From Liolophura sinensis (Eukaryota; Mollusca; Polyplacophora; Chitonida; Chitonidae), in assembly GCF_032854445.1 (NCBI RefSeq), contig NC_088301.1, positions 51,943,187 to 52,007,186 of the forward strand: 64,000 nucleotides of DNA. Reading direction: 5' to 3'. Made by a program: the position numbers and the translations under genes. Below are positions 1 to 45,100 of the stretch, in pieces. A model generated the notes under the pieces. That model made no database searches, was not told the origin of the DNA, and saw nothing but the letters and a program-made list of their open reading frames with translations. Positions within the stretch are counted from its first letter, which is position 1; each line of letters starts with the position of its first letter.

Positions 1-70
1 GCTATTATAATCTGTTAACAAAACAGTGTGAAATGAGTTAAATAACATGTCTTTAATTTGTTTACTTCAG

Positions 71-3000
71 TCCTGCCACAGAATTCAAGCATGCCACCAT
101 GACATCACGTACTGGCCTGAAGCTCCAGTTGATGAAACAGCAGGTGCAAGATGAAGAGAAAAAAGAGGCACTCACATCACAGTCGCTCCGCCTATCAGGC
201 CTAGGGGGAGCGAACTCTTTCCACACAACCCCAGTGAGCATGCCCGTGTCCTCATCTGTGAACTCTGATGTTCCTCCACAGATTTTACAGGTATGTCCAG
301 TTTAAATTGTCAGGCTTTCCTTGAATTCTGAACATTTTAAAGAGTTTCTGACTGATTTTTCATTCGATTGGTGTTTTATAATATTTCACTTATACAATGG
401 CAGTGCTTTTAGATTGAAGCAGTACTTTTATGTACATACTTTATTGGGATGTGAGTGGGGGTGTCATGTTCATATTAGTTTTGAGCAAAAAGATTAGTTC
501 CTATTATAGATATACACCTTCTTCCAATTAGGAGAGGTGACTGAGGTTTATAAACAAACAAGGCAGAGTAAGTAGGAAATGTAGACTGTATAGCTGACAT
601 AAAGTTAAAGAGCCATTTGTATGCTCAGTACCTGAAAAATCTTTGTTGCTGAAAGGGAGCACTAGTACTGCAGAATGAATATTTCTGGTAAGTGCTTAAT
701 ACTGTGAAATGTATTGTAGTAAACAATTGTCAGACTTATTTGTCACTTGTATAGTGTATAAACCTTGGCAGACTGGTCTGGAAATGATCTCCCTTTTTCT
801 GATCACCAATAAAATTGAAGGTCTCCTATAAAACTGGTGTAGGTGTACAAGACCTGTCAGAAAAAAGTGCCCCTGGGGGATTATAATGGGGGGTGTTCAT
901 TCCTAGTCAACAGATGCCCAGTGCAAACATAGCACAACATGGATGTCCAGGGAGACCATGTCACCTATTGTGTCCATCTATGGACACAATAACCCACTTT
1001 GCTAAGGGGAGGTGGAGGGGATAAGCTGAGATTTAAGTCATATCACATAGATCTAAATGAAAAGTAAACATGACAACTGGATTAAGCCTGAAAGCTACCT
1101 ACAAGTGCTAGAGCCAGTACTGCCACTTGGCTGAAGATTATCTCACCTGCTGAGCTAAGACTTGCTTCTGTTTACCTTTGAGGGATTACTCTAGAGCACC
1201 AAGACATTGACACAAGCCCATAATGAACCAGCATAACACTTAAGCAGATTACCTTATATTTGAATACCCGTGGGCCAACATTGGCTTGTGCCACTGATAG
1301 TGGACATTAATTCCCTTGCCATGTCTGTTTTGCTATGCATTTATTTTTTTATGGAGGCATTTTGAAACATTTTCAGAGAGTTTCAGATAAATTCAGTAAT
1401 ATTTTGATGACAGTAAATCTGATATGCAAGAAATTGGCCTGGTTATTTATGGGAAAACTTTGGATTTTTTTCCTTTTAATTTTATGTTCTAACAAAAGAT
1501 ATTTTAATGTTTAGGTTTGTATTTATTATGGGGATTACTTGAAGTCATCCTGACGAACAACAATCATGGTCTTTTCCTGTATTTTATATGATGTTAAATG
1601 TAGGTTTTAACATGCACAGGTTCCTTATGGTGAGCTTATTGTCATCTCCATTGTTTTGATTTTTTTTTTGCAAAGTGCTTTGTATTAAAACTAAAAAACT
1701 GATTACTTTTCTAGTGAAAAGATTCTGTATTATAGTTTCAAGTCCCTTTTCTGGGTTACTGGGAAACAAATTGAAACTTGTTTTGACATTTAATGAATTA
1801 TAAACATTTTTGTTATTGACACAGAATTGGTGACAATTGACACGAGATAGCATCTTAAGTACAGTGAGAGTCTCAGCCCACTTTGATGGTGATACACCAG
1901 ATAGCATCTTTGTTTCTTTCTTAGAAGAGTTACCATTTTTGTTAAGTTACTGTGAGGTTGTTTGTTAACGAGAATGGATGACAAATCAGGGAGTGCTATC
2001 TGATCAGAACCTCTGTCAGAGATTATATGTCATTATGGTGTTGCCCTGCCTCCTAATCTACCTTAATCTGTCCCATTCTGTCGCTAGTGTTCCTCCAATC
2101 ACTTCCACTGTGACATCCCTTTTAGGGCTGATCTGAGCCCTTTGTCCGATGTGTTACCCCCATTGTTATAAGTCAAGGAGCATGGCGTGAGAATGAAGTG
2201 GAACTGGGCATTAAACCCACAGGTCTACAGCATCCCTACCCTGAGGGAGGATAACTTTATTATCTACTTACCCCCTCTGTCTGGGAATTCTTTGGGTCCT
2301 GGGCTGGGATATAAAAAAGTTATGATCATCCTCTGTGTGGGGTCAGTAGTTGTTACACAGTGGTTGTGATCAGACAGACAACAAACGGTCAAGCCGTGTT
2401 ACCCGGGAATAGATCACCATGATGTTGTATGAGTGTCAATATGAGGAGTACTGTTATCACCAGCCCTGCTGGTATGACACCTGGGGAAATCACACGGAAC
2501 ATAGCTACAACATGCCTAACTACCAAAACGCTCAGTGGGATAACAACAACTACTGTAATCCTGATCATGTTAGTCTCACGTTTTAAGTCACCTCCGGGAT
2601 GGAAAGCTTGTATCAGACGATTCATTCATACGGATTGAGATTTCAGAGTTTGTGCTATGAAAAGAATTCCGAAAATGTTTCATAGATCTTGTGTACTGCT
2701 GTGTTGTTTTGTGATAAATGAATTCTTGAAAAGTTTGAAATTGGTGACTTAAATTTTGGTACATTATGACATTACCTGAGTAATATATGGTTTCATTCTG
2801 ATTTTGTCAACAGGTGAAGACTAGGTTACAGAATCCAACGAAATACCATGTGGAACAGAGCCAGAAACGCCAGATTCAGATGTTTATCAGCCAATCACAA
2901 CCAGAAGGGCCCCTTACTCATTCCCTTTCAACCATCAATTTGGGCCACATTTCGAACAGCTATAACCACCAGCACCCAAACAGCGCTCCAGTGGATCCAG

Positions 3001-6000
3001 ACAGCCCACTGTCTGTGGGAATGAGCAGCGCTGCTACAAGCATGTCAGAGGTAACATTGATAATATACTTACTATTAATTAAGCAGTTAATTTTAATTAT
3101 TATAAAACATTTTGTGGTACATGCAAAATAACTCCGTCGTGATATGATGAAATGCTTTTGAAAGATCAAAATTTAGGGGAACAAATTAAGCAAATTCTTG
3201 TAATTCGGATGTCAGTATTAAATAGGGTACAAATTGTTTGCTGTGGTTTGCATTTTGGTATCAAAGAAATTTAGGAGTTACTTGTATGTTCATGGCCAGG
3301 CATTCCTACTTTTATTCTGAAGAAAGGAATTTATAGTTGAAGCATTTTGTTTTTAGTTCAGTGAGTATATTATAGTGTGTAAATAAACAGCAAGTAAAAT
3401 GCTTCGGAGTCGTAAACACCATGTTGAACCATGTTATTATTTAGGAGAATATAAAATGAATATTTTTTTAATAGGAATTTCTGTTTAATCTTGGCTGATT
3501 TTAGATGTGGTAACAGGAATGGCATTAGCATTGTATATCAGTTCACTTGGTAAAGCTAAGCTGTTTACCTGAACATGGCATGTCCTTTTGTGTAACCTGG
3601 AGAGCAGATGTGACCACTGAAGTGTACTTGTATGTGACAATAGACAGGTCACTTCATGAACTTTTCACATCTCACTGATCAATCATTAGCATTGTTTACA
3701 CCAGTGTCAAGATAGGATCACCCAATGAAGCATGTGGAAGATTTTTAGTATATGGTTAAATCAAATGATGTTAAAGATACATGCATTCACCTTTGGACAT
3801 TTTGTATTTTCTTCATAATGTTTGGTCATATCTGTACAATCTATGCCTGCTTATGAAGTGGTCATCTTCTTGGTGTGCTATAGCAGTTCCAAATTCCTTG
3901 AATATTTTGAATTTTGCTGAGAGTGTAGCGTGAAGATGTGATTATCCTTGTTGGTTAATCCTAGTTCACTTCATAAATGTGAGCCAAACATGAGCAGAAT
4001 GGCTGTGTTTTACTTCAGTCTACACAGTATTCGTGCACACGTGGCTTTTGTGGGATTTTGAGAAAGCATACTGTAGAAAAAGAAATTCAAACGCAAGCTC
4101 CTTGTTTTGAAAATTGTTATACACATGATAACTGTGTTACTGCTTTTCTTGTGTGTAATTGATGGGTTATCATTCTTGGTGATAACATTGTTGTTGGAAG
4201 GTCATTTGTTGATGTTCTATAGCCATCTGTTTCAGTAAGTTTCTAGTTAGTGCAGGGTTTTGAGATGGCATGTTTGAAAACTTTTTTAGTAACATTTTGT
4301 ATCATTTTCCAGTGGGCTGTTCATATTAGCAAAGGGCTTAAGTAATATTTTGTTATAGCCAGACACTGAGAGGATTTTGTTTATGTTTTTTTGCTTTGTT
4401 TGCAGGCCTTTTTTATGCATTTTAATTATTGTTGATCTGATTTTTGCCTATCAACAGGTGGATGACATCCTGGGAGAAATCATCAGCCTGGAGAATGTGG
4501 ATGCAACAACAGACAATGACCTGAATTTCATAGAGCCAACCCTGTCACACATTTCCTCATCAACAGTATGTATCCATGTACAAGTGTTCATCAGACACTG
4601 GAGTAAATTTCATAAATTTAGATTTATCTGAGCATTTAATGTTAGTGTTGGAGAATATAGGACTAAACATTGATTAAATAAAGTTGATGCTTTCCTACTT
4701 TCATTGAAACATTTGGATTGTTGACATCTTGGTTCTTTCCTTCAGGAGGCTCCGACATTTCTGTCAGATGATGAAGCCAGACTTTGGGCAAAAGAAAGAC
4801 AAAAGAAAGACAATCACAACCTCAGTAAGTTCTCATCCATCATGTTGGCTGATAATCTTAAATTATCTAATGGAATTGTGTTACATATACAGTACTGATA
4901 GCTAATATTCCAAAGTTAGTAAGATAAAGATTAAAGGGTCATTTTAGAGCGTGCAGAATTTACTTATGTAAATAAGTTACTAGCTCTGAAGTTCACATTT
5001 CAAGTTTTGTTGAATATTTCTTTATTGTGATTTTTTTAATGTTGCATATTTAAATGTTGTTTGAATTTTCAGTTGAAAGAAGAAGAAGATTTAATATTAA
5101 TGACAGAATTAAAGAATTGGGAACTCTTCTGCCCAAGTGCAGTGACCCGTAAGTTTAATGATTAATTATACTTGCTGATTATCGTAAACTACATGAATGA
5201 AACTGTAATACTTCACTATACGGTAGTGGTGAAATGATTTGATTGTCATCCTTGAAAACCAAGAAACCCGGGCTCAATCCACAGTCATATATACGTCATG
5301 TAGCTTTGTCACTATGTGTCTTTCAACAAAAGATTCAACTGTGGCCAAAGTACTGGCGGACCACAGGTCTGGGGCCCTTTCTATGTGGTGTAACTTGCGC
5401 TTGGTGCAACATCTTTGACCTCACAGTCACATTATTCAACAAGATAAATAAGTTTAACTCTAGTTTGTGACATGGATCATTGATGTTTTTGGCTAATAAC
5501 AAAGAACAAATAACCTTTACATTTACAGATTGGTTTGGAAATGAGGGAGGGGGGTGGGGAGCGCTTTTTTCTTAGTTAAATATCTCTTGGGTTAAAGTAA
5601 CAGTGTTAACCTTTGTAATTTATCTATTTCACCCCAAGTTTAACATTTCTGATGTGACACATTTTGCTTGTTTCTGATTGGTTCATCAACCTTATGGGAC
5701 CACTCAAGAGCTCAGCTGACATCAAAAGTATCATTTTAAAGCCTTTATGTGCTGCTGAAAGTGCCTTTTTACTTTACTAAACAGTAAAATGCGGTATATA
5801 CATGTATATGTAATGTTCTACAAGAGCGTGAAATATATGTAGGTTCAGTTTTATTCACATAGAAGGGTGGTAGATACATTTAAGTTTACCTGTGTGTTGT
5901 AGGGACATGAGACAGAACAAAGGGACAATACTCAAAGCCTCCGTAGATTACATCAGAAGACTGAAACGTGACCATGATAAAATGAAACAGTTGGAGGAAA

Positions 6001-6815
6001 AGCAGCGTATGATGGAGGCAACGAATCGAAGAATGATGCTGAGAATACAGGTAGGCATGCCAAGAAAAAGTGCTGTGTTGAGTATTCCAAAAATTGTTTT
6101 TTTAAAAAGTTAATTAGGTTGTGATGACATCACAAATTGACACTGTATTACTAATAGTTTGTTTAAAGTACTGAGTATGCATTACTGAGAGTGCTCATAG
6201 CTCCTGTTTCTCTGAGGCATGGTTTTGTGGCATGGCTTTAAACATGAGGTAAATCAGTGTACACAAAGTTGAGTTCTTGCAGAAAATGTTACATAGGAGC
6301 TATTCTGTTAATATCAGTAATGAATTGTTCTATGAATAACTTTTTGTTTTCAGCAGATTTTATTTTAAAATTTTTTTAATATGAATGTGTAAGCAACTGT
6401 AACTGTTCTTATCACACAAGCTGAGGTAGAACTATGATGAAGCAGTAATGAAGTTTATGATGTTTTTCTCTTCACATGGTATTTGTGTGGTCAGTTACAT
6501 TGGGTTTTGTAATTTCAGCAATTGGAACTGTTGATGAAGGCTCATGGAATAACAACCGGGACCTCCAATGATTCTGAACAGCTTCTGACCACATTAATAG
6601 AGCCAAACACACTTCAGACACCATTAAGGACCATGAATACAGACATTGTTGATCACACACAGGCAGCCATTGCCTCACTCACACAGCTTCCTCACTCACA
6701 GAGTCCATTTGATGACATGGACGACACATCACCTGTTGGGGGAGATCCCATGATGCTCTCTGCCCCTGTCAGTCCTGCAATGGAAGAGGAAAACAGTGAC
6801 CTTCTCAACTTGTAA
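71..6815 (+). CDS. MITF: MITF/TFEB/TFE3-family bHLH-leucine zipper transcription factor
   Basis: Exons (plus): 71-290 (ATG at 99), 2814-3050, 4458-4565, 4746-4824, 5073-5148, 5903-6050, 6519-6815; all junctions are GT-AG and in phase, giving 378 residues from ATG 99. Seen: an MiT/TFE N-terminus ([12 protein letters not shown]), the motif NPTKYH at the start of exon 2, an acidic [12 protein letters not shown] segment matching the family activation region, the basic region [18 protein letters not shown], the helix motif [17 protein letters not shown], then a zipper. In the family this factor binds E-box/CLEAR elements as a dimer and controls lysosome, autophagy and pigment-cell genes. Residues S3, R4, Q10 and L11, used by TFEB to contact Rag GTPases, are present. 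The reading frame is open upstream of ATG 99 to the acceptor at 70, so a longer form starting left of the window is possible. Family-invariant DMRWNKG reads DMRQNKG here. No RRSSFS-like serine cluster is seen at the C-terminus. Confidence 0.93.
966..991. repeat. Perfect 12-bp inverted repeat with 2-bp spacer
   Basis: TATTGTGTCCAT and its exact reverse complement ATGGACACAATA are separated by CT, inside a MITF intron. It could form a small hairpin or cruciform. No function is evident. Confidence 0.6.
2310..2347 (+). promoter_or_regulatory. TATA box and initiator-like site for the internal MITF promoter
   Basis: TATAAAAAAG at 2310-2319 is followed 35 bp later by TCAGT (A at 2345), an arthropod-type initiator sequence. 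This would place a transcript start about 75 bp before the ATG at 2419. The local sequence (2040-2420) is more GC-rich than the surrounding intron. Promoter activity is inferred. Confidence 0.4.
2419..2568 (+). CDS. MITF: Candidate alternative first exon of MITF (short, MITF-M-like isoform)
   Basis: An ATG-ATG start in good context (atcaccATG) opens a 50-codon Tyr/Asn/Cys/His/Trp-rich reading frame (begins [12 protein letters not shown], ends NYCNPDH). It ends at a usable GTTAGT donor in phase 0, exactly the phase of the exon at 2814 that begins [12 protein letters not shown]. Splicing would give a 364-residue protein lacking the [12 protein letters not shown] Rag-binding segment. In vertebrates the melanocyte isoform MITF-M is made the same way: a short private first exon (MLEMLEYNHYQ) joins the VQTHLENPTKYH exon. 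A TATA-like box lies about 110 bp upstream. If unspliced, the frame stops five codons after the donor (2584-2586). The coding and isoform roles are inference; the frame, phase and donor are seen. Confidence 0.55.
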
Positions 6816-8140
6816 TAAAAGACTATTTTCCAATGACTGGTGCAATGTTGTTTAAATTAACTGTGACATACCTGTACCTTTTATCTGCAGTGCTTTCAGG
6901 AGGTCACCTATGTTTCTGCCAACTGGTGGATGCTTGTGCTCATAAATGCAAGGGAGGTAATTTGTGGTGTAACTGATGGGTGCTGGCTGCTATTGACAAA
7001 AGCATCATTTTGATATGGGTTAGCTGTAATATCAGACAAATATCTTTTTGTTTGCGCCTTTTGATTTGTTGTTCTGTTTTAATTAATGGCCTTAAGATAC
7101 TGTTTTCTCCTCCTGGTTGCTGCAGTTTTACAGTTTTTTAATGTGATATTTTCCAGAACTGGGAGTAGAACTTTAAGACAGATTAAAGATTTAGATGTAC
7201 ATATCTATATATATACACAATGTTTATACATTATGTATCAATACATATACTTAATGTATGTAGGAGTATGAAAGGGACTGGATACAAATTACCTTTGATC
7301 GTTTAAGGAGATGATGTAATTTTACTCGGTAAAGATAGACTTCTCATTCAGTATTTTTTCTTAAAAGTAAACAGCACAGAGAATGTATGGGACTGTCTGG
7401 TATTTGTTTTTGGAAGATTTTATTGTGCTTTTTATTAGCCCAGGCATGTGTTAAAAATATGTTTTATCTATCAATTTTAGATAAGTTAGGCAAAATAGCA
7501 GAGGTCTTGTAAAAGACTGCTCTTTTTAATACTTATATTCTGATACAATTCTAATTTTGTGCTTTAATAGTTGGTCATTGCACTAGTGATTTTTTTATTT
7601 AACAAGAGAATTTTATTCCCTTCTACACATAATAAAGTAGCTAATGTTTAATATACATCTGGTAAACCAGACAAAAGAATGACCCAGTCTGAGTTAAAAT
7701 TGATTGGTATTTGTCCTCTTTTAGTTATTGTTTGCCTCATTAAGCTGCATCCACTTTTAACTGGCCAATCGAAGGAAATCTTTCTCAAACCAGGATCAGC
7801 AGTAGCATTTATAATGCATAGGTAACTGCAACATGTAGTATTGGTAGCAGCATTGCTGCTATTCCTAAAGGAGTTGTTAGTTTATTACATTTATGTTGTA
7901 CATAAACATTTACAAAGCATTATCAAAAATATATACTTTTGGCAAAATAAATGTATGTAAATAGTTATCCCCACTTTTGCATCTACAAGTTTTATCCCAT
8001 TCATCCCCCATTATTGTTGTGAACAACTGTTCACTCACCTTGTTACCATATGTACATTCATGTAAACTTTTAGTAAAAATTATGAAAGTTCATATATTCA
8101 TCGGAATACTGTAAATAAATATTTTTACCCAATTTCATTG
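6816..8140 (+). other. Putative MITF 3' untranslated region
   Basis: AT-rich sequence after the stop codon with no coding signal. AATAAA motifs occur at 6814-6819 (overlapping the stop), 7946-7951 and 8114-8119; the last, followed by SINE-rich spacer, is the likeliest end. Four Pumilio-type TGTANATA sites occur at 7196-7203, 7897-7904, 7956-7963 and 8110-8117. The UTR extent is inferred. Confidence 0.5.
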
Positions 8141-8243
8141 AACTTTGTTGCTTTGATGACTTTGTGTGAAGCAGAATGCTGTGTAAGGGTACATAGGCCA
8201 TAAAGTTTAACTACCTCTGTTGTCATTATTTTTTTATTTGTGT

Positions 8244-8340
8244 AATTATTTATTTGATTGTCTTACGTTGTACTCAAGAATATTTCGCATACACAAAGGT
8301 GGCCAGCATTCTGTTGAGAGGAAACCGAGCATAGGCCAGA
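8244..8340 (-). mobile_element. Nin-DC-type SINE, 3' fragment
   Basis: Carries the family's 3' end in reverse (ATTTATTTGATTG, then TACTCAAGAATATTTCGCATA, then GGCCAGCATT and GAGGAAACCG). The tRNA-like head is missing. Confidence 0.7.
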
Positions 8341-9130
8341 CTCCTCTGTTGTGAAGTAGTAAATGACCTAATTTGCAAACTGATTCTGAAAGCTCTATGA
8401 AACTTACAAAGGTGTTTTGAAGTTCGTTTGGAAGGTAGGATGGTATCCTATGGGAGAGAAGTAAGTTTTGGTAACAAAAAGTATATTTTATGACATTTAT
8501 TTGCAATCAAGTATACAATTTTTCGGGCAAAATTTTTGGTGATTTAGGCGACAGCAGTATTATTTTGTGTTTTATGAGTGTGCCAACACTAAAAATTAAA
8601 AAAATGGAATAAAAATAAAACTTTTTTAAAAAGTCCACCTTTTTATTTTTTAATTTTTATTTAATCATCTTTTGGATGATTACCATTTTCCTGATTTTTC
8701 CAGTCCTGTAAATGTCTTCAGCAGGAAAAATTACCAAGATGATCTGCATTGTACAAAAGTTTCATTTTTAGTTTCATATCATTCTGCGACATTGAGAAAA
8801 CGTTTAAAACGACAAATAAAATTGGTGTGGCCTCGCTGTAATTTAAGATATTAATTGTCAGATACAGATGGTAAACAAAACGCTGGTGTCTGGTGTTTGT
8901 GACAGTTTTATGGCCACTAGATAAATATACCCTGTATGCTGATAAATTGTTTACATGAAAACCTTCCGGGCATACCGGTTAGATATTTGGCTTTGGTCAT
9001 CAAGGAACAATACTGACGATTAAAGCCAAACATAATCCAACAATGTCATGAAAGTTACGATATATTCAAGGACTTTGGTAGGTCCCACATTCTACTGTAC
9101 ATTATTTTAATCACATTATAAAGAGAAGTG
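8341..9130. other. Spacer without recognised features
   Basis: AT-rich intergenic DNA. Short open frames (for example 8672-8854) show no splice logic or recognisable protein. Confidence 0.5.
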
Positions 9131-9426: not shown

Positions 9427-10210
9427 GTTCTCTGACAGTATCTACAGACAAATTTTCTTTTTCTTTATATCATAATCTTACAGACAAAAGTTCTCCCACA
9501 GTATCTACAGACAAAGGTTCTCTAACAGTACCTACGGACAAAAGTTCTCTGACAGTAACCAGATAAAAGTTCTCTGACAATATCCACATACAATTTTTCT
9601 CTGAGGGTATCTACAGACAAAAGTTCTGCGACAGTGTTTACAGACAATTGTTCTCTGACAGTATCTACAAATAAACGTTCTCAGATTGTATCCACAGACA
9701 AACGTTCTCTGACAGTATCTACAAACAAAAGTTCTCTGGCAGTATCTACAGACAAAAGTTCTCTGACAGTATCTACGGATAAATGTTCTCGTGCAGTTTT
9801 CACAGAAAAAAATTTCTCTGACAGTGTCTGCAGACAATGAATGAACAATGGACGTCCACAGACAACATTCTTATGATGGTGTGCACAGTCAAAAGTCGTG
9901 CGACACTGTCCATTGACAAAAGTAATCTGAAAGCGCCCACGTGCATTATCTGACATTGTTCGCAGACTAAAATCCCCTGCATGCAGAGTGTCCAAGGGGA
10001 AAATTCCTCAGACAGTATCCACAAACGAAATTCCAGTCCATAGACATACGCTATAATTCTGACAGTGTCATCAGATACCAATTTTATAAGCAGCATTATC
10101 TGTCGACTGAATAAAACTACTGGAACAGTGTCTACATATAAAAGAAATCTGGTTTTGCTAAGATTCAGATAAAAGTATTCAAACAGTATCGGGGCATAAC
10201 AGATCTGTAA
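9427..10210. repeat. 27-bp minisatellite, decaying to the right
   Basis: Tandem units resembling ACAGACAAAAGTTCTCTG plus ACAGTATCT recur every 27 bp from about 9427 to 9840. More diverged copies can still be followed to about 10210. Because 27 is a multiple of three, long frames stay open on both strands (for example minus-strand 9-residue repeats with CRYCQRTF). These look like by-products of the period, not genes. Confidence 0.75.
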
Positions 10211-11437
10211 TACTAGCTAAGCCTGTAAGTCTTAAATTCTTTTCCAGTTGGAATCAAGGCAAAACAGAATTTTTTTCGTGTGCGAATGCAAACCGTAACG
10301 GTTAGGTCAGCCTCAGTATAAACGCTAATGTTTCTAAGATAAACTAAACTTCGACGCTTAGTAAGACTGTGGTATCTTATTTGAATCCATGGGTATGTGT
10401 ATTATCCCATGCGTATATAGCAAGCCTTCACTGCAGTAACGAGCAGAGTGTCTTTACAGTAAAATTTGCTGTTGCGATAAATTGCAGTGAATTTTTTGTA
10501 GATAAACGGCTCTCCTCTGTAAATTTACAGACAGTTACTTAGATATACAGTAAGCGAGATGCCGTAAAAATAAACATGGACTTTACCATTTTTTTACAGC
10601 CAGGTGCTCCAAAGGTAAGTTTCTAATAACCCATCTAAGAAACGCGGGAGTACATGTTCTTGTAGTATAACGAATGTGTTTCGATGAATCGAATTAATTT
10701 ATCAATTATTTGGGTTTAATCTTGCACCGGCAATATTTCAGTCATATCGTGACGAAAACATGTTAAATCCAAGAAAGAATTGTTTTTCCATACGAGAATT
10801 ATAACATCTAAAATTAATAATAAACACAGACTTTTAAAACCCGCTGAAAAAAGTGAAAAATCACTGAAAAAAAACAACAACAAATCTTTAAGAACATATG
10901 AAATATAGTTCTTGCCCATCAATGTTATTATATTTATATTAAGTGCACCACCGCCAGCAAACCTGTCAAGGCATCAGATCAAAAGACACACGGAGCACAC
11001 CTGAATCTACGCGTCCAAACAGACGTCAACCAGGCCAAGCTTGTCTATTCTTTCACCACAGAGACCCAAGGGCGACATGCAAGGAATCGATTTCAGTTGG
11101 CTAAACAGTCAAGGTTTACGAAAAGCGGTTTTCACGCAGCTAAAAATGAACGTTTTCATCGACTTGTGTTGTTAATGATCAAGATTTACGAGTTAGCTGT
11201 AAGCTGTATACCTTCCAATGCATGAAAGGTGTATTTTGCGTTTAGAAGTAGGCCCTGTATTTACAACATCGCTTATTCGGTCGACACTACGACAGAGAAA
11301 GACGCAATATATTGTGCTGGATTAACTGGTTTAGTTTTGTCACATATTTTTGTGCCTATAGTCTTACTATAGGTAGCACCCTCTATCTATAGGGAATAAT
11401 GAATAAATGAATACACAAAGTCTGCTGAAATTTAATT
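10211..11437. other. Spacer between two tandem arrays
   Basis: No gene was recognised. A 15-nt segment at 10600-10614 is flanked by a good acceptor (TTTTTTACAG) and donor (GTAAGT) but cannot be tied to any transcript. Confidence 0.4.
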
Positions 11438-12060
11438 GTGCTCATACAGTGTGGATGTGATCAATGATGGAAGCACGCAGTGGCAATGCTATCTGAAGGA
11501 AGTGCTCAAGTAGTGTGGATGTGGTCACTGAGGGATACAAGCAATGGAGATGTTTTAAGGGAGGTGCTCATACAGTGTGGATGTGATCAATGATGGAAGC
11601 ACGCAGTGGCAATGCTATCTGAAGGAAGTGCTCAAGTAGTGTGGATGTGGTCACTGAGGGATACAAGCAATGGAGATGTTTTAAGGGAGGTGCTCATACA
11701 GTGTGGATGTGATCAATGATGGAAGCACGCAGTGGCAATGCTATCTGAAGGAAGTGCTCAAGTAGTGTGGATTTGGTCACTGAGGGATACAAGCAATGGA
11801 GATGTTTTAAGGGAGGTGCTCATGCAGTGTGGATGTGATCAATGATGGAAGCGCGCAGTGGCAATGCTATCTGAAGGAAGTGCTCAAGTAGTGTGGATGT
11901 GGTCACTGAGGGGTACAAGCAATGGAGATGTTTTAAGGGAGGTGCTCATACAGTGTGGATGTGATCAATGATGGAAGCACGCAGTGACAATGCTATCTGA
12001 AGGAAATGCTCAAGTAGTGTGGATGTGGTCACTGAGGGATACAAGCAGTGGCAATTTTCT
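11438..12060. repeat. Satellite block: five near-identical 126-bp dimers
   Basis: The start of the unit (GTGCTCATACAGTGTGGATG) recurs at 11438, 11564, 11690, 11816 and 11942, exactly 126 bp apart. Each unit is two related monomers of 64 and 62 bp: one with GATCAATGATGGAAGCACGC and one with GGTCACTGAGGGATACAAGC. Copies differ by only a few bases, pointing to recent amplification. Confidence 0.9.
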
Positions 12061-13722
12061 GTTGTGGAAGTGCTCATGAAATGTATATGTGGTCACTGAA
12101 GGAAACACGCAGTGGCGATGTTGTCTGAATAAAGCGCCCATGAAGTGTTGAGGTGGTCACTGAGGAAAACACACACTGAGGAGTCCACGCAGTGGAGATG
12201 TTCTAAGAGAAGTGCTCATACAGTGTGGACGTGACTGATGCGGGAAGCACGCGATGACAACGTTATCTGAGTGAACTGCTCATCCAGTGTTGATCGATGC
12301 CTGAGGGAGTGTTCATACGATGTGTTTGTAGTCAATGAGGGAAGCACGCAGTGGTAATGTTATCTGAGGGAAGTGCCTCAAGCAGTGTGGATGTGGTCAA
12401 TGAGGGAAGCACTCAGTTGAGATGTTCTGAGGGAATGTGGTCACTGAGGGAAGAGCGCAGTGGGGATGTTCTGAGGGAAGTCCTCATACAGTGTGAATAT
12501 GGTCATGCATTGTCTCTAGCAAGTGCTCATGTTAATAAAGGCACGCAGTGGAGATGCTCTGAGAGAAGTGACCATATAGTGTGGATGTGATCAGGGGGGA
12601 ATTAAGCACGAAGTGATAATGTTTGGGGGAAGTGCTTATATGAGGAGCGTTAAGTCAGTTACTGCAGCACCCAGTGGCAATGTTGTCTGAAGGAAGTGTT
12701 TATACGGTGTGGATGTGGTCAATGAGAGAAAAGAGCAGCGGTAATGCTATCTGAGGGAGGTGGCCATGCGGTGTGGATGTGCTCACTGAAGGAAACACGC
12801 AGCTGAGGTGTTCTGAGGGAAATACTAATACAGTGTACTGTTGATATAGTCACTGAGAGAAATACGCAGTGGTAATGTTATGAAGTGAAGTGAAATAAAG
12901 TGAACATGCAGAATGGATATGGTCACTGAGGGAAACACGTAGGGGAGATGTTCTGAGGGAAAAGTCAATACCGTGTGGATGTGGTCACTGAGGGAAACAC
13001 GCAGTGGCAATGTTGTCTGAAGGAAGTACCAATGCATGGAATGTTTTAAGGAAAGTGCTCACACAGCGTGGATGTGATCAGTTAAGGAAATACGCAATAG
13101 CAATGTTATCTGAGGGATGTTCTCATGCAGCGTGGTCACTGAGGAACACATGCAGTGGCAATGTTGTGTGGGTTAAATGCTCCGGCATTGTGTGTTTACT
13201 CAATCAGGGAAGCACACAGGGTTAAGGTCATCTGAGGGAGTGCCCATGCAGTGTGGATGCGGCCACTGATGGAAGCACGCAGTTTTATTCTTGTGCTTAT
13301 ACAGTGTGGGTATGGTCACTGAGGGAAGCACACAGTGGAGATGCTCATAGAGAGTGGGTATGGTCACTGAATGAAGCACGCAGTGGTGATGTTGTCTAAA
13401 GGAAGTGCTTATACATACTTATGTGGTCACTGAGAGATACAAGCAGTAGAGCTGTTCTGAGGGAAGTGCTCATACAGTGTGGATGTGGCCACTGAGGGAA
13501 GCGTACAGCGGCAGTATTGCCTGGGGAAAGTGCTCACACAATGTGTGTGTGTATGCAATCAGGGAAGCTCGCAGTGGCGTAATGTTGTTTGAAGGAAGTC
13601 TTGATACGGTGTGGATGTAGGAATGCTCATGAAACAGCGAAACAGATAGTGGCTATATATTCCGAGGGGAGTCTTCATACAGTGTGGATGTGGTCACTGG
13701 GGGAACACACAGTGGGGATGTT
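12061..13722. repeat. Diverged monomers of the same ~63-bp satellite
   Basis: Irregular, heavily diverged copies of the monomer (core AGTGTGGATGTGGTCACTGAGG, then AAGCACGCAGTGGCAATGTT) continue to about 13722 with indels. Short open frames here (12351-12590, 13004-13225) follow the repeat and are not genes. Confidence 0.85.
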
Positions 13723-24324: not shown

Positions 24325-24995
24325 GATCGTTTTACGATTGCATTTAAATTGCTCTCGGATCAACTCTTCCCCATGTCTGTTCATATTGTATATATACTAA
24401 AAAATGGTATAATATACATGAATGGACGTCGTCAGAAGATACTGATAACGCAGATGAATTTATTCACTTCTCAAAGAATTCAGGAATGTCCCATTTATAA
24501 CGGTATTAGTTAACACTGACTGTTATCCGTACAGGTGATGCCAAGTCGACCGTTTGTTTGTACAAATTATATACGGGCTGTAGTAAGCCTTGGCCTTGGC
24601 ACGGCGGGTTGGTATGGGCCTTTCCTTCATGGGTGTACACTATCGTGGAGCTGCATGTCTCGGACAGAGTAAGCAAACAGCAGAAGCACACCGAGCCCCG
24701 ACAACCACGTGCCTGCTACAGTGGAGGAACTATAGGGAGTGAGCGACCTCAGATCTACTTTTCCACGCCTCCGGCAGTATCTTTTTCTACTGCCAGTCAT
24801 CAGCCACAAATTTTGGCGCCGAACGCCGTTTGCTGCAATCCTGGATGGAGAGCTGGCCTACCCATGCCAAGTAAACATCAGAGGGACTGGCCCATACATT
24901 CTCACACGGATGTACGAACTTTAATAGATGCTCCACGTGGGTGTGGGATGAGGGGTGATGAGAAATGAGGCCATCGGACGAGAGATCCACTGGAC
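24325..24995. other. Upstream region of the EFCC1-like gene
   Basis: Relatively GC-rich sequence immediately before the EFCC1-like start codon, likely promoter and 5'UTR. It carries overlapping open frames on both strands (24558-24968 plus; 24506-24990 minus) without recognisable products. No TATA box is obvious. Confidence 0.4.
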
Positions 24996-27900
24996 ATGGC
25001 GCAGACTGGCGGACTGTCCAGCCGACTCATGCACAGAGGAAGGTTTCGGACTCCATACTCCCGTAAAACAAATCGGTGGCTACCCGCCGCTTTAGCTTAC
25101 TACTATGGACGCGAGCCAGGTGCAAGGAACGAAGTTGTCGTACTGGCCTTAGGGATTGACCAATATCTGCAAGCAATTTTTCATAGCTTGGATTTTAAAA
25201 AGCAAGGATGCATTAATGCCTCCCACTTCGAAGCCTTTTGTGAAGTCCTGGAATTGCATGAAGAATCGCTGGTGAGTGATATTCCAGAGAAAATGTCATT
25301 TCGCGAATTCCATGCTCGCCTTGGGGAACACTTCGCTGGTAAATATGGACAGGAATACAAACCACCTAATGTCAAGGTGGAACAAGAGGAATACGTCTCT
25401 ACTTCTGTTCGAACTAAGGAAACCATCCAGTTAATCTCACAATCTTCTGATGCGGAAAAACCCACCAAACCTAAGTTTGGGACATTTCCCAAAGAGATAA
25501 AAGTGTATAAAAAGTGCAGTGTCAATTCCTTAAATATTCTTGACTACCCCACAGGAAGTTTGAATCGAAATCCGAAATGGTCAAAGAGAGATACCCAGCC
25601 TAAAGTGCTTTCAGATGCGGGTAGTCAGGAGAACAAAGTTCTTCAAAGTGAGCCCACAATACCTGCAGATGGAGTCTGTTTTCTGAAAAGGTCAAGCAAT
25701 GAAAACTCCTTCAAAAATTCCTACCGCGAGGAAAGCGAATGTCTACGTGAAATTATTGAAGACTTGAGAGGTGCTTTACAAAGCAAAGATGCTGAATGTC
25801 TAGCGTGGCAGGTAGCTCTGAAACATGCTCAAACTGTGTCCCGCTCAGCTCGGACTTTTGCAGGAGACACTGCCAAATGTAGCGCACCCATGGAACACGG
25901 CGTATTAAATCCCCCAAAGTCCAGCAAGTGGACAGACTCAAGTAGAACAGTCGTGCCGGGATATTTGAAGTCTGCCTCAAAAGAGCCAAATGGTATCGAC
26001 ATGGACGTTAAAGAAATGGCTTCAAATAACAAGGGTCAGGAAATCGCCAAGCTTGTATCATTGGTTAATCATTTACAGGCGGAATTAAATGAAACTTACA
26101 AAGAATTGACAAATTTGGAAAATCACAATAAGTTATTGATGGATAATTTGGATACCTTGGCTAAGAACTATGAGATGACACGCCGGCTCTTCGAGGTGGC
26201 TATAGTGAAAGTAAAAGACCTGGAAAGAGAAGTGTCAACAATTCCCTGTCTTAAAGATACAATCGCATATCTACAAGAAGAAAGAGACGGTCAGATAAAA
26301 GATCGATCCAGAAAAAGGTAATTCATTACATAACACATACATGCTCACGTACGCGCGATAAGAATTGTAGGCCTACCTGTATGCGGCTTTTCAAACAAAA
26401 CTATAGATTTTAATGCTTTCTTTCTTACGGCTACCTATATTGAGTATATGGTGAATAAATAATATGTTCAAATTTCTGGCCTGTAACCCAGAAAGACATT
26501 ATAATACATATGCTCTTTCCTTCGTATTCCAACACATGCATACAAGATAAGTTTAAGGTGTCTTGTAGAAACTTTCCATCACAATTTCCCACATTTAGAA
26601 TATGGTTAACTGCATTCTAAATGCAGCTTGCGTTACTACTGACACGGTGTCCTTGCGGGTGGTAAGGTATGGAGAAGTACTTACGAGAGCTATCTATATA
26701 CACGTAAAGGTCGACAGAGAGATAATCAAGAAAGAGTTAAGCTTGTAATGCTTGCGTATGGGGCTGCTGAGCTGCACATACCCCACGGTTAAGTTATTAT
26801 CTGGAGGCGGTCAAATTTCTTCTGCTCCCGAGTTCAACAGCCCATCAAATCCACGTTAACGAACCAAGCTGCAACGGTATTTGTGTTCCTGCTCTGTCGG
26901 AAGCCTCTCTACTTGAAGCACATTTCCCCACATCTGTGCTAAGTCTATCAGCATCCTCTCACATGCGATAGTCGCTTCAAAGCCTTTCTACAATGGGGGG
27001 CATTATGAGGTGACTAGTGCTGGAAATAAACCACGAGAAAGAGGGCCCAGGGGAGACAGAAAACTCAATTATAATGTGAAAGATATTCCAGTAATACATG
27101 TCTTCTCTTCCAGCACTGTACACTCGTTTTAAGACGGCACAGTAGCTGGTAACAAATGCCACCCAGGTTTTTAAGTTTGGTGCTAATGCAGTCACCACCC
27201 CCTATAGAGAAATTAAGAAAAAAAATGGGTTGAATTATCAATTGACTGCATATTGAACTTCAGACTTCAAATTATATTTCCATTTATGCAAATTTGTAAT
27301 GAATTTTACATGAATGTATAACAGGTTAGTAAATAATTCAACCCAGCCACTTATAAAACTGCTTATAAGAACAAAATAGCTAAATAATGTAGGTTAATAT
27401 AAGTAATGTTCAAAACTGCAAATTACAAAATAATGGATTCTGCATGGAAACAGGGTCAGCTAAAAACCCAGATGCAATTAACCTGTCATTACCGTGACAA
27501 CAGGTGCCAGATAAGGATAGTCAGTTGGTTTACAACTTCATTACTACAGAAACAACCAGCGGTTTGCACACTCTAGACAGTCAGGGCCGCAAATAGACCA
27601 CCAGACTATCTCCATTACCGCAAGACACATGCAGCTTAACTGCATGCAGGCACAGGTGTGTCTTGTTAACGTCTTCGAATGATCCTTTAAGGGTTGCTCC
27701 TCCCTCTTCCCAAATCCATTTCAGTAAGGTTAGAAGGATAGCGCTGGCATGTCGCCAGTAGTGGTGATTTAAACCAAGTGTTCTCGATGCATGCTGTTTA
27801 TCTTATCTTCTGCAATGGCGCGACCTGTTCGGCCATGGCATACGTCTGCCGATATAGATACTAACACCACAGAAACGCAACACACTTGGGCACAATCGGC

Positions 27901-30900: not shown

Positions 30901-33090
30901 TTAAAAAAACACAGGGGAGAAACATTAAGTGGAAAATTGTCAGCTAGACCTCTGAAAATTAAGAATGTGTCCATACAGATGGCAGGCCTAATTCTTTAAA
31001 AAATTCATAAACTTTGCTATAACGATGACAATGGCCATCAAATATATGTTTATATGCGTCAAATACATGCAGACCTTAACAGAAAAAACACAAAACAAAA
31101 ATTGGAAACACTATTTCGCTTCACTCGTACCCCACGTACGTATATAAAAATCAAAACAGGGTTCGGTGCCGTCACCGAAAATAACTGTGTTTTCGGGTTA
31201 TAGAAATTGCTCGTGCTTAACTGACTAATATAATTGACATATTGGCACCTTCGGTTTTTCTCACTGTGCGCGAGTTTACTTAATTTGAACAGCGATATAC
31301 GGGTTATGCAAAAAGTATTATGCTTTTTAAACTGTATGTGACATACTTATACTGCATATCGATGCATATATACATTTAGTCTAGTCTTTGTATATCCCCT
31401 TAAAGCGAGTAAGTCAGTGAAATGTATCCATTAATCATGCACTGAAATGCATGGTTGACACAGTCAGTGTCTAGCACGCATGTACAAATGCTTCACCATT
31501 TTCACAGTTTCATGGAAAATATTTAAAACTAGAAATTAAATTTACCCTCCATTGTCTCAGCATTTGTCGGGTTACAAAGCATATACATGCATGACACTTT
31601 GAAACGTCCAACATAAATGTAGTTATGGTTCATAAAAATAAAACTGCTACTAAACCGATATTCCAACTGATTTCACAGGGTCTGACGAAGAGTATGTACA
31701 TTCTGTGGGGGTCTCAAGGTGGGGCTCCCGCATGTCGGCATCTCAAGAGGAATCGATTACGATGTCAAAACTTCAGGAATGTTTGACGTCGTTGAATGGT
31801 CGACTTTATCAGATGTCTGAAGAGAAAAGGCGACTTTTGGACGAGCTTCAGTGCTGTAAACTGCGGAATAATGAAAGCCGGAAAGAGCTAGAAGGAGTGG
31901 AAGCGGAGAGGGCACGACTGTCCGTTATAGAAGAGAGGCTTCAAGAGTCAATAACGCTGCTTCGATTCCTTCGAGGAAAGGTAATAAACACAGCAAGTGA
32001 AATTATTGCTGTATGTCACTTAATGAACTTTGAACAATGAATTTTATAGAAGACAGTTCATAACGTCAAATTTGACCACTAAATTGTGTACATACAATAC
32101 TACAAACCTGTTTTATTTCGTAAACATGTTAATGCTTTTGTTTCTTAAGACAGAGAAAATTCCTTAAATCTGAAACGAATTTCGTGGAATTTTTTTTTTT
32201 CTCTGTGAAAACCAATCTCCGATTTCTGTATATACACATACCATATGGAAGAGAGGAATCGATGGGCACAGACATGCATGGTGGGGAACAGTACTTACCT
32301 CTTTTTAAGATAACCAGTAATAAATGTCAATTTGCTAAATTATATTCAAAGTTCTTGAGCCGTCGGACGTTGGGGAAGTTTCTGCTTGACGTGGTGGACG
32401 AAAGTTACGACGACCCAAGAGAAGGTAACTCTTGTTAAGAATTGCGGATGTAGTGACACCCAAATTTACATGCCTAATAAAATTCACCGGGTCCGTACAA
32501 TACCGTTACTAAATATTCACTGATAAGATCCAATCTGACCATACTACCTCTTTGTAGGCAGACAGAAAATGTATATCTCATTTCCTCAGCATAGCGTGAC
32601 AGTTTGTCATGACCAGTTTGAGTTGTACACCCTTAACATGCAGTTGGGTTCGTCTTAGTGTTACTGTTAATCATGAAAGAAACAATATTGTTCTGTATTT
32701 ATTTATTTACTACATATTTATTTCACTGTTGTTACTCTGTACTCAAGAATATTTTGCTTATACGACGGCTTATACGAAAATCCACGACCATCCGCAGGTT
32801 GCTAAAAGACCTTCCTACGTATGGTATTGTTCTGTATATTCCCTACATCCTACATGGATGTATCCATACCTGATAAAATCTCAGACGTCCATTTGTCTAT
32901 TTCAGAATTCGTTGCTGATAAGTTTGTGGAGAAGCTCTTGAAGAAACTGACATCCAGTGAGCTTTTGAAAGAGGAGACATACCAGAAACTGCCTTATTCC
33001 CACTGCCCGAAATTTTCTTTACCCACCTACTATGGTGACTCTTCCGGAAAAACCTTGTTTAAAGAAACAGAGACATTATGTGTTCTGTAA
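24996..33090 (+). CDS. EFCC1: EF-hand and coiled-coil protein, EFCC1-like
   Basis: Exons: 24996-26317, 28724-28854, 29372-29407, 31679-31980, 32310-32424, 32906-33090; phases agree, giving 696 residues (human EFCC1 is about 600). The N-terminal block (about 24-85: RWLPAALAYYYG, NEVVVLALGIDQYLQAIF) matches the EFCC1/CCDC48 family as I know it. One EF-hand-like loop at 66-77 (DFKKQGCINASH) has D1 and G6, but Lys, Gln and His at positions 3, 5 and 12, so calcium binding is doubtful. Coiled coils lie at about 240-282, 345-441 and through exon 4. Exon 3 is only 36 nt. The acceptor of exon 5 is my choice (CTTACCTCTTTTTAAG at 32309); a weaker in-frame AG at 32351 is an alternative. The molecular function of the family is not established. 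Confidence 0.78.
30174..30270 (-). mobile_element. Nin-DC-type SINE, 3' fragment
   Basis: An ATTT-repeat tail, TGATTGGTGTTTAACGCCGT and AATCAAGAATATTTAAC are recognisable in an intron of the EFCC1-like gene. The rest is lost. Confidence 0.7.
32692..32825 (-). mobile_element. Nin-DC-type SINE, truncated
   Basis: TACTCAAGAATATTTTGCTT, then an internal deletion, then CCACGACCATCCGCAGGTTG and GACCTTCCTACGTATGG. It lies in the last intron of the EFCC1-like gene. Confidence 0.75.
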
Positions 33091-34137: not shown

Positions 34138-35417
34138 ATGAATGTTTATTAGAGTACATAAAATCTGCACTTCCATGTTAACTCTACATTGTAAATCAAT
34201 TGTTGACTGCGCTTCCCTTCAATCTGGGGCTATAATCTAAAGCCTCTATGTGACTGCGGCTTTTTTGGCGGAGAGAGTAAATCAACCCAAATTACAAAAT
34301 GTAGACCACTGGACCTTTATTACAAACGATTTTGAGCATCAACTAAACCACTACAGCAATAATGCATTATGATGGCTCATGCTAATAAACAAGATATTCA
34401 TTAACATCAAGTGTGCCCTACAGTAAACAATTACAGGATATATCATGAACAAACCATTACTTCAGTGAATGAATCATTTCCACATCCTTACCAACCAATA
34501 CACTTGCATTAATAAGGAGTAGAGAAATGAATGCATTGACATAATATTAACATTTTTTACTACTGGACAATTAGAAAGATGTCAAAAACAACCCATGCTT
34601 CACTACATGCCTTCTGTGTACAGATATTCTTGTCAATATTACTGTATTACAGTATTACACAGGTAATCATATCAAATAATTCTTCAATCAACTGGAATGA
34701 TTACTGGAGCAATCATTCTGTGTAAAGTCACAGTTCTTAACAGATGCTCAGAAAAAGAAAGACTTTCCAAAAAACCCTTGAACTGGAAGGATGTTCAGAA
34801 CAAAATTCACAATATCATCTATAATAAAGATGTTTACGATCATTGTACTGCAAAGACATCAATTCCTCATAACATAATGAAACATAAACATATTCTGAAA
34901 TAACACTGTTGTACAGCAAAGGTTTCCAGGACACTCATTCAAAACATCGCTGTAGTGGAAAAATACTTAGCACATGCAGTAAGTTACAGTAATCATATCT
35001 CTTAGAACCATGCACCAAGAATTCCAAATAGTGCTATAGGTTATCATTTTTAAAAAATCAAAAAACACACACCCAAAAAGTTTTAAAGGGCAAAATTGAG
35101 ATCAAAATTTGTTAACCTGATCTGTTTGAATACACAGATTGTGACTTGGTTAGCAAATCTATGAAGCAAGTGATATGGTTAATACACAAAAAACAACAAA
35201 AAAAAAACGCACAGCCCTCAAAATAAATTAAGAAAAAGACATGATGTTTATCAAATGGCTCCCAGTACATACATCTATCTGTTTTAGGGAAAAAAATGAT
35301 TAGGGAATCATTTTCATGCATGGAAGCACCTAAGGTCTTTCTCTTTTCCCCAAATGTTTCAAATGGCAAGAAAGGTTAGTCCATCATTTAACTGTGCTTA
35401 CCTACATGGTGAAACAT

Positions 35418-35551
35418 GTGACACCATATAATGTAAACAGTGTTTGCCAAACAAGTGACACCATATGTAAACAGTGTTTGCCAAACAAGTGACACCATAT
35501 ATAAACAGTGTTTGCCAAACAAGTGACACCAAATATTAACAGTGTTTGCCA
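35418..35551. repeat. Four tandem 34-37-bp units
   Basis: GTGACACCATAT...AACAGTGTTTGCCAAACA starts at 35418, 35455, 35489 and 35523. Each unit carries the mini-palindrome TGTTTGCCAAACA (the last one truncated). Confidence 0.85.
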
Positions 35552-36582
35552 ACCACCAGGACTGAATTTTACAGTTTGCAAACAATAAAGTTTACATACA
35601 TGTATCATAGAACTATATTTATACAATGGAACAAACTGTTAAGTTTAATTTATCAACAAAAGCTTATATATTATCATCACACTAATGCCACACTATGTAC
35701 TACACATGTACTGCAAAAAATACACTGTATAATATGGGAGATAGTTCACAAAATTTGGGTTGTTCCAGCACAATCACATGAAGCAAGCTGTTGTTTTGAA
35801 ACGTAGATTTACTTCCAAGCATGCATCAAGCAATTATTGAACGAGTTACACTTTACTGAGCACCATGTTTAACATTCATCAACTTTTCTTAAACACTTGA
35901 TGTTTCTAATATGTCTTATTAAAATACTTGACTTTTATTCACTAATTTCAATTTTTGCTCCCTTTTTTCTTTTCGTTGCAACAATTTGTACGTACTTGTA
36001 CTTTTATGGACTTTAAACATTCATATATAGTGTATGGTACTAAAAATATTTAACTGTCTCTGTTTTTATGAACTTTGTTTTAATATCATTTAATAATAAT
36101 CTCTTAAAATATCAGTTATTTCTATCATCTTTGCTTTACAACAAAGCCATCAAAACCAGCTTTAATCCAGGAAATTATTCCGTTTGATCAAGTACTGATT
36201 CACATTTCATTCTTAATTAGGTCAAAGAAGTTTCTATTTTGCCTTCACTGGTACATTGAATATGGCACTGCAGTGAGTAATGTATAGCAGTCAGGAAGAC
36301 AACTAGATACTGTGAAATTTTAACGACTAAATATCCCAATTAAGTTAAACTAAATTTTGATTTAGAACTTGAAGTGGTTAAACTCCCTTAGACAATGGCA
36401 CCTAGAATAGCGAAATATATGTAAAACTTTAATGGATATTCTGAAAATTCATACTTTTATATAGTATTGAAAAACCACCTCCCAATCTAGAGAACCAAAG
36501 GTGGTGATCCTGAAAGCCCTTGTAATGTTGCTACATATACTGTGCATGAATTATTAATGTCTAACACTTACATACACACAAA

Positions 36583-42100: not shown

Positions 42101-45100
42101 AAGTAGATGGCCCATCATCATGTTACAACTGCTTTTGGTATGGAATGAAATATAGGAGTCCATTTTCACAGACTCTGTCGTGCGGCAATCTACATTCATC
42201 CACTATTTCCCAATGTTGATTATTTTTGTGAAAATATTAACTTTCTTAATTTCAGTCAATTATGATTTTAAAAAATTAAATTCAATACCGGTAACACAAT
42301 ATCAAACGAAAATGAAGGTGTAATTTTTCTGAAAGCACTGAAGTCAGGTATAAGAAGAGAAATACCTAAAATTCAATTTGAACTGCTTAAACCAAAGATT
42401 TATGATTATTCTCTATTATGGATTCTTTAATTTACAGTGGCTCAGACAAAATGCACTATAAAATGCTCAATGGATACCAGTTTTAATGACTGAAGGCAAT
42501 ATTCATTAGTAAGGTATTCCAGAGAACAAATAAATTTCACCAATCTTGAACATGCAGAACTTTTATTATTTTTTTATGATTACTTCTATAATTTCAATCA
42601 ATTACATGTCTTCAAACAGTAGTGTGGGATTGCATGGTAGTCGCAGTAATCTTTGAGCCTTCTAATCATCTGGCAAATACATGTGACAAATATCTTGGGT
42701 TTTCAACATAAGGATGAGAAGTGTTGGATTACACATCAGGTTCCATTTTTTGGCACTCACCCTGCCCAGCATCTTGTTCCATCTCTTGGATTACTGTCAG
42801 AGTTGGGGCTCACACGAAATGTCACCTCTCCCTCATACCACTTATTTGACATAAATTTCTTAAACCCTGACAACAGAATGAAAGATGAAGATACACAACT
42901 CATTGTTGCAGGATATACAACACATCCCCATCCAATTATAAGAGAATATAACTTTGGGAACTTCATTAACCACTCTGAACAGTAACACATGCACAGACTA
43001 GGCAGTGAAAGATAATTGACCGATATAATGTTTTTTTTTCTTTTGTGTAAAAAAAAAAAAAAAACCAGACTAGGCAGTGAAAGATAATCAACAGATATAA
43101 TGTTTTTTTTTCTTTTGTGTAAAAAAAAAAAAAAAAACAGACTAGGCAGTGAAAGATAATCAACAGATATAATGTTTTTTTTTTCTTTTGTGTAAAAAAA
43201 AAAAAAAACCCAGACTAGGCAGTGAAAGATAATCAACAGATATAATGTTTTTTTTTTCTTTTGTGTAAAAAAAAAAAAAAACCCAGACTAGGCAGTGAAA
43301 GATAATCAACAGATATAATGTTTTTTTTTCTTTTGTGTAAAAAAAAAAAAAAACCCAGACTAGGCAGTGAAAGATAATCAACAGATATAATGTTTTTTTT
43401 TTTTCTTTTGTGTAAAAAAAAAAAAAAAAACAGACTAGGCAGTGAAAGATAATCAACAGATATAATGTTTTTTTTTTCTTTTGTGTAAAAAAAAAAAAAA
43501 AAACCCAGACTAGGCAGTGAAAGATAATCAACAGATATAATGTTTTTTTTTTCTTTTGTGTAAAAAAAAAAAACCCAGACTAGGCAGTGAAAGATAATCA
43601 ACAGATATAATGTTTTTTTTTTCTTTTGTGTAAAAAAAAAAAAAACCAGACTAGGCAGTGAAAGATAATCAACAGATATAATGTTTTTTTTTTCTTTTGT
43701 GTAAAAAAAAAAAAATGAAATAAAACCTTTTGATGTAGTATCACTCACTTGTTTTCTTAAAAGTGTGCTATAAGTATTTATAATTATATGCATTTTGTTT
43801 CAACACAAATAAAATTAACTGAAAACAATCTGTGGAAGATCTTGTCTTGGTCTTTCAAATGATGACAGTCATATGAAGTGATCACTAACACATTGTTAAC
43901 AAGAAGGTAAGATGATCCTGTAGATCACTCACCACACCAATCATATCTCTTGGGTCCCATCCACCGGTGTTGTTCACTGTCCACCAAAACATCACCGTAA
44001 TAACCATAGGCCAACATAGACACATTGTATGTGATAAATTGGTTCCTGTGAAACACACCTGTCACATCAATACCTATACTGTCACCTGAGAAAAAACAGA
44101 AGCACACGTGAAACAATAACAGAAATTATCAGCAGTGAGTAAAAATATTCCGCCACCCCCTCCCCACCTCCTTGTCCCCAAATCCCTCTTCCATAGGTTT
44201 GATTCACAGGATGAAAGGCACAATCAAAATATTTTTTATTCCAGTCCCTAAATTGTAGTTTCTCTACTATCTGATTGGCCAATTGCCTTCTAATCAGGAC
44301 TTGTGCCGGGTGTCCTACTCAACCGATGCCATAAAACCTCATTTCAGCACACACCAAATGCAAATATTGCTTTTTGCTTTTTTTTTGACACAGCAAAGGG
44401 ATGGTGCAGTCAATTTCATTATGTCACTGTACATGACATCACAGTATAAACACACTTGCAGGTCTGAAACAAACTCAAGAGTACATCAAGAATGCATCAA
44501 AAAATTTTGGTTTGACTTTTAAATTTCAGTATAATAAAATCTTTATCAGGATTGGTTGAGAGGAGATATGATGTGTACACATAATGAGTGTGAAAATGGT
44601 TAAATTTCCAGTCAATATCCTTGACCCAACCCTGATAACTTATAATGTAATTACACTGTGCACTGTGACTTGGATGTATTGCTTGAGATTTACTACTGAA
44701 ATGAAAACTGAAATATCTTCAACTTTGTAAGGTTTGTAGTACGGAGTAATATTACAAAAGTCTTGCTACAAGGGACTGGCTAAAATGCTGGAAGTTGGCA
44801 TAACACAATGTATCACAGCTATTATAAACCAAAAACTACACTCAAGGACAATGGAACATGCAGTTATCACTAATAAATTATTTAGATTATCTCTAGAGAA
44901 TGAACTCGTATGAATCATGCCACAAAAAATTGGTTCATTTCTGCATTTACTGTAAAAATCATTATAACATGTTTTATTATCCAAAAATAAAAACAAACTC
45001 AGGCTAACCTGTAATAATATGAAGGGCTGAAGTCACAGGATCATTGGTCCCTGTGGTACTGTACACAACAGTGTCTGTGGAACCTAAGTTCACATAAAAA

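Follow-up and report, generated by a model that had tools for sequence, protein, structure and literature searches.

A candidate alternative first exon in the MITF gene of the chiton Liolophura sinensis, predicted to give a short form without the Rag-binding segment

The stretch of DNA analysed here (the window, 64,000 nucleotides; contig NC_088301.1, positions 51,943,187 to 52,007,186 of the forward strand) comes from the genome assembly of a chiton that was published as Liolophura japonica (PMC11068029) and renamed Liolophura sinensis in a correction (PMC12441733). Published RNA-seq of this animal comes from five tissues, namely digestive gland, foot, gill, gonad and heart (PMC11068029). It contains a clear orthologue of MITF/TFEB (Table 1). 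Seven coding exons on the plus strand, with GT-AG ends, splice into a long form of 378 residues read from the ATG at 99, and this protein matches the Pfam families MITF_TFEB_C_3_N (PF15951, E 2.1e-22) and HLH (E 1.3e-14). Its membership of the MITF/TFE factors is equally plain from structures: TFEB structure 7ux2 aligns to residues 1-295 (E 7.4e-49), the alignment beginning at the first methionine of both proteins (TFEB side, MASRIGLRMQLMREQ), and MITF structure 6g1l matches with E 1.8e-43, the MITF structures covering the bHLH-zipper. The exon that carries ATG 99 has an acceptor, and its frame is open 5' of the ATG, so that at least one more exon and a promoter should lie upstream; no such upstream first exon of the long form was recognised by eye in the 10 kb before the window. 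CpG dinucleotides are depleted across the gene, each 500-base bin of 1-7000 having an observed/expected ratio between 0 and about 0.5, as expected if gene bodies are methylated, and are near-normal at 10001-11500 (0.85 to 1.07).

The rest of the window holds, on the minus strand, an exon with an aminomethyltransferase folate-binding domain (57750-58199; GCV_T, E 5.5e-41) and an exon matching the ceramide-kinase PH domain (49697-50113; E 1e-13), and, on the plus strand, two open frames with matches to the CCD48 coiled-coil family (24969-26318, E 5.4e-29; 31654-32037, E 2.2e-5, under the curated cut-off of the family). Tandem arrays are present at 9479-9837 (27-base unit), 11438-12165 (126-base unit), 35412-35552 (34-base unit) and 42993-43715 (72-base unit).

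Table 1. Exons of the chiton MITF gene and features of the candidate alternative first exon (positions in the window)
Feature	Positions	Strand	Basis
MITF exon with 1B1b-like Rag-binding segment; ATG at 99; skipped by the predicted short isoform	71-290	+	splicing and alignment
TATA-box-like TATAAAAA	2310-2317	+	sole plus-strand TATAWAAR in 1801-2800
Initiator-like GTCAGT (BBCABW); candidate transcription start near 2345	2342-2347	+	motif match
Putative 5' untranslated leader of the short transcript; no ATG; ends ATCACC/ATG	2345-2418	+	extent inferred
In-frame TAG just 5' of the candidate ATG	2410-2412	+	open frame begins 2413
Candidate alternative first coding exon, 50 codons	2419-2568	+	frame, codon-position bias, donor, codon score
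Splice donor CAT/GTTAGT	2569-2574	+	consensus match, 7/9 vs MAG/GTRAGT
MITF exon 2; phase 0; acceptor common to both first exons	2814-3050	+	splicing and alignment
MITF exon 3	4458-4565	+	spliced reading frame
MITF exon 4	4746-4824	+	spliced reading frame
MITF exon 5; part of bHLH region	5073-5148	+	splicing and alignment
MITF exon 6; rest of bHLH and zipper region	5903-6050	+	splicing and alignment
MITF exon 7 with stop codon	6519-6815	+	spliced reading frame

The candidate exon sits between the exon with the 1B1b-like segment and exon 2. A preliminary description of this DNA had reported a 50-codon frame here, with an ATG-ATG start and a GTTAGT donor matching exon 2 in phase, and translation and splicing in silico bear it out: the 50 residues, rich in Tyr, Asn, His and Cys, are read without a single stop, and the frame, joined in phase 0 to the acceptor at 2814, continues to the MITF stop, giving 364 residues. 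The TAG just upstream implies that the frame either starts at 2419 or is entered by splicing after 2412. The start context (CACCATG; ATCACCATGAT) resembles that of the long-form ATG (GCCACCATGAC). The donor deviates from the consensus by a T at -1 and at +3, yet is of normal strength for this gene, whose 6 other observed donors score 6 to 8; 2419-2640 contains two phase-0 GTs, and the one besides the candidate donor scores 4.

Whether such a frame could be non-coding intron DNA whose composition happens to yield an open, periodic reading beside a GT is the first alternative to be weighed. Its open length is ordinary (57 codons from 2413), and the other two plus-strand frames of the same intron are open as well, one for 67 codons starting at 1311 and the other for 71 codons that start at 2423 and overlap the candidate, which is in keeping with chance; a 78-residue frame also covers the candidate on the minus strand (2389-2625). 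In contrast, a search of 38,010 other bases, counting both strands, for stretches of 30 or more codons from an ATG to a phase-0 donor scoring 7 or more yielded just two, and these are shorter (37 and 33 codons) and far less periodic (chi-square 12.8 and 10.6). The base-by-codon-position bias of 2419-2568, a measure that needs no training, reaches a chi-square of 37.2 (6 degrees of freedom). This exceeds every one of 2758 strict non-coding windows (150 bases, overlapping), which go no higher than 22.3. In a broader sample of 13,364 windows, with other genes and repeats admitted, 0.08% attain the value; none of 20,000 dinucleotide shuffles does, and 4.1% of the shuffles leave the frame open. The strict windows were taken from the MITF gene and the 10 kb upstream of it, the latter being assumed non-coding without proof and containing a tandem array upstream of the first exon listed (18.3 copies of a 46-base unit, at 7936-8779 of the upstream segment).

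The bias is also confined to the frame, which argues against chance. In 150-base windows moved by 30 bases it peaks at those starting from 2410 (36.9) and 2440 (33.0) and falls outside the bounds set by the ATG and the donor (3.8 at 2290, 5.7 at 2560). Among periods 2 to 7 a clear excess is seen at 3 and at 6 (43.7, 15 degrees of freedom), together with a weaker signal at 5 (21.9, 12 degrees of freedom), and the bias persists when the AACAACAACTAC run is left out (31.1). Adenine occupies the second codon position in 31 of the 50 codons, whereas the adjoining 20 codons on the 5' side have 7 and those on the 3' side 5 of 20. The frame contains 8 TAN and 7 TGN codons, none of them a stop, which at intron frequencies has a probability of about 5e-4.

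Codon scores are more mixed. The training set of the codon model comprised 15,587 codons from 25 kinase and 25 homeobox loci, in frames that run stop to stop and may contain some intron ends. Against a null of its own composition the candidate scores 2.90 bits, the best of six frames in a comparison that skipped stops in the other frames and so favours them; the exact antisense scores -9.35, and on codon score the antisense frame is rejected as the true coding strand. The score exceeds that of 886 of 902 overlapping open non-coding windows—the remaining 16 match it, a point for chance—and is equal to or above that of 78% of 291 left-out coding windows, rising to 3.48 bits with kinase-only and dropping to 0.51 with homeobox-only training. 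Against local introns the score is neutral (0.09 bits over 50 codons, of which +4.74 synonymous and -4.65 amino-acid), a point in favour of chance; it is nonetheless above the scores of all nine ATG frames of 50 codons or more in the non-coding controls (-1.12 to -18.64). Finally, a bias as large as the candidate's occurs in just 4 of 547 coding windows, and the seven other MITF exons have values of 5.7 to 18.7, so that the candidate is unusual even as coding DNA, which again leaves some room for a chance origin. By its periodicity, bounded by the ATG and the donor, 2419-2568 nevertheless looks coding, and chance appears an unlikely, if not negligible, explanation.

Promoter-like motifs coincide with the frame and its start context, which adds to the case against chance. 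TATAWAAR has a background frequency of 0.715 per kb (21 in 29,380 strict non-coding bases, both strands), and a TATA and initiator pair at such spacing occurs once in these control bases. The T of the TATA box stands at about -35 from the A at 2345, and such a distance is slightly long, at the long edge of the usual. An internal promoter for the candidate exon is putative, being read from these TATA and initiator-like motifs. The densest 600-base CpG stretch in the 16.8 kb examined starts at 2386 (14 CpG, partly in exon 2); this peak is not significant in a placement test (13 CpG, P 0.197), and a CpG island was accordingly dropped as promoter evidence.

The same TATA motif and start context would suit a small independent gene within the MITF intron, namely an unspliced transcript encoding a microprotein of 55 residues. 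Past the donor the frame does continue for only five codons (VSLTF) before a stop at 2584-2586. However, the donor agrees with exon 2 in phase and has a strength normal for this gene, the excess of second-position adenine disappears just past it (31/50 to 5/20), and the 50 residues match no Pfam family; such a gene seems improbable. Alternatively, the long isoform may carry the sequence as an internal cassette exon (e.g., 2413-2568 or 2464-2568) that keeps the frame from the 1B1b-like exon into exon 2, since AGs at 2411-2412 and 2462-2463 would serve as phase-0 acceptors. The first is preceded by 8 pyrimidines in 16 positions, equal to the lowest of seven real acceptors, and the second by 7 in 16; real acceptors have 8 to 12, which places one AG at the bottom of their range and the other beneath it. 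Moreover, the first third of the exon is already periodic (18.1 in 50 bases), and a good ATG context would be superfluous in a cassette exon, which we consider rather less probable still than a microprotein gene.

Searches of the genome (609,464,459 bases in 632 contigs) returned, for the 50-residue protein, for the 541 bases of the exon plus flanking DNA and for the upstream 571 bases, self-matches alone. The DNA search omits very common words, so a single copy is not strictly proven by it. No tandem repeat was found at 2200-2800, and an origin from a repeat or transposon is unsupported by these results. No second haplotype or paralogue on which selection might be assessed was found in the genome, and collections of viral and prokaryote contigs gave 7 and 34 pattern matches, respectively, none confirmed by tblastn. 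That no relative, and hence no sign of constraint, emerged from the collections searched would suit a decayed first exon, once used and now devoid of promoter or transcript; yet frame, donor and start are intact and 50 codons are free of stops, and we regard decay as very improbable.

The private exon of vertebrate MITF-M comprises 11 codons (MLEMLEYNHYQ). Local alignment of the 50 chiton residues with this peptide scores 20, against a shuffle mean of 20.04 (p 0.52), and alignments anchored at the ATG or at the junction fare no better (p 0.90 and 0.78, shuffles). Tyr/His richness is therefore not evidence of shared ancestry, and sequence kinship of the exon with this peptide is rejected. Of the parallel with MITF-M drawn in the preliminary description, what stands is position and phase, to which the predicted loss of 1B1b may be added; the resemblance of residues does not go beyond chance.

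In MITF-M, exon 1M is spliced straight to exon 2 and exon 1B1b is absent (PMC7470386), and the candidate would likewise be a short first exon joined directly to exon 2, giving isoforms that differ in first exon and promoter and a product without the 1B1b Rag-binding segment. In vertebrates the 1B1b-encoded retention segment, which is present in all MITF isoforms but MITF-M, binds active Rag GTPases, and MITF-M is constitutively nuclear (PMC7470386), while relatives containing 1B1b can be retained at the lysosome and in the cytoplasm (PMC7470386, PMC7815692). The other vertebrate first exons (A, B, C, D, E, H, J and Mc) similarly provide different N-termini from alternative promoters (PMC9363479) but keep the 1B1b segment, which the chiton exon would bypass: the chiton long form retains a 1B1b-like segment in its alignment with TFEB, in which the corresponding part binds Rag GTPases as well, and the predicted short form loses it. 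The differences from MITF-M lie in the length of the exon (50 codons versus 11), in the residues, and in the animal, a mollusc and not a vertebrate. The parallel with MITF-M is architectural and most likely convergent, with independent origin as the default reading.

Among molluscs, orthologues have been described in bivalves, in which the number of MITF genes differs (PMC8298618): scallop Py-Mitf has eight exons (PMC9363479), the two MITF genes of Corbicula have 8 exons and encode 533 residues each (PMC8298618), and PpMitf of Pteria penguin has 449 residues (PMC8173187). A total of eight would correspond to the seven coding exons of the chiton and one or more exons further upstream. Two of these bivalve reports (PMC8173187, PMC8298618) never use the word 'isoform' in their main text, and no alternative first exon of a mollusc MITF appears in titles or abstract openings among the matches listed. 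In another chiton, Leptochiton asellus, MITF (Las-MITF, KU193726) is expressed in the shielding-pigment cells of the larval eye, which also express pax6 (PMC4689004); this expression is given for the gene, with no isoform stated in the part of the report concerned, and so makes a use in pigment cells plausible while being silent on isoforms.

On balance, we give a probability of about 0.6 to 2419-2568 being an alternative first exon that has its own promoter inside the gene, is spliced at 2568 to the acceptor at 2814 and yields a short MITF free of the Rag-binding segment, a judgement that rests on anatomy and composition. The TATA box at 2310, with a start near 2345, would drive a short transcript in which the candidate exon is joined to exon 2, and the 364-residue product would have its 1B1b-like N-terminus replaced by the 50-residue segment and would retain the later regions, including bHLH and zipper. 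This segment is probably disordered and could act as a disordered activation or interaction segment. Lacking the 1B1b-like segment, the short form should be free of mTORC1 control, escaping both recruitment to the lysosome and mTORC1-dependent retention in the cytoplasm, and may thus work like MITF-M without being its sequence homologue.

More tentatively, and with more doubt than confidence, a pigment-cell promoter inside the MITF gene of a protostome might supply a Rag-independent, mostly nuclear MITF as a working equivalent of MITF-M. If so, promoter choice would separate the lysosomal, nutrient-regulated tasks of MITF from its nutrient-blind tasks in pigment cells, the nutrient-blind form being used in, e.g., larval eyespots, shell eyes or mantle, and the arrangement would have arisen independently or from an exon of the bilaterian ancestor whose sequence has diverged beyond recognition. 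The proposal makes one precise prediction, a junction from 2568 to 2814 that reads can confirm or make unlikely, and it is testable in an animal class in which MITF is already known from larval eye pigment cells. Should a chiton indeed use an unrelated exon in this way, the split between nutrient sensing and pigmentation by promoter would not be a vertebrate speciality.
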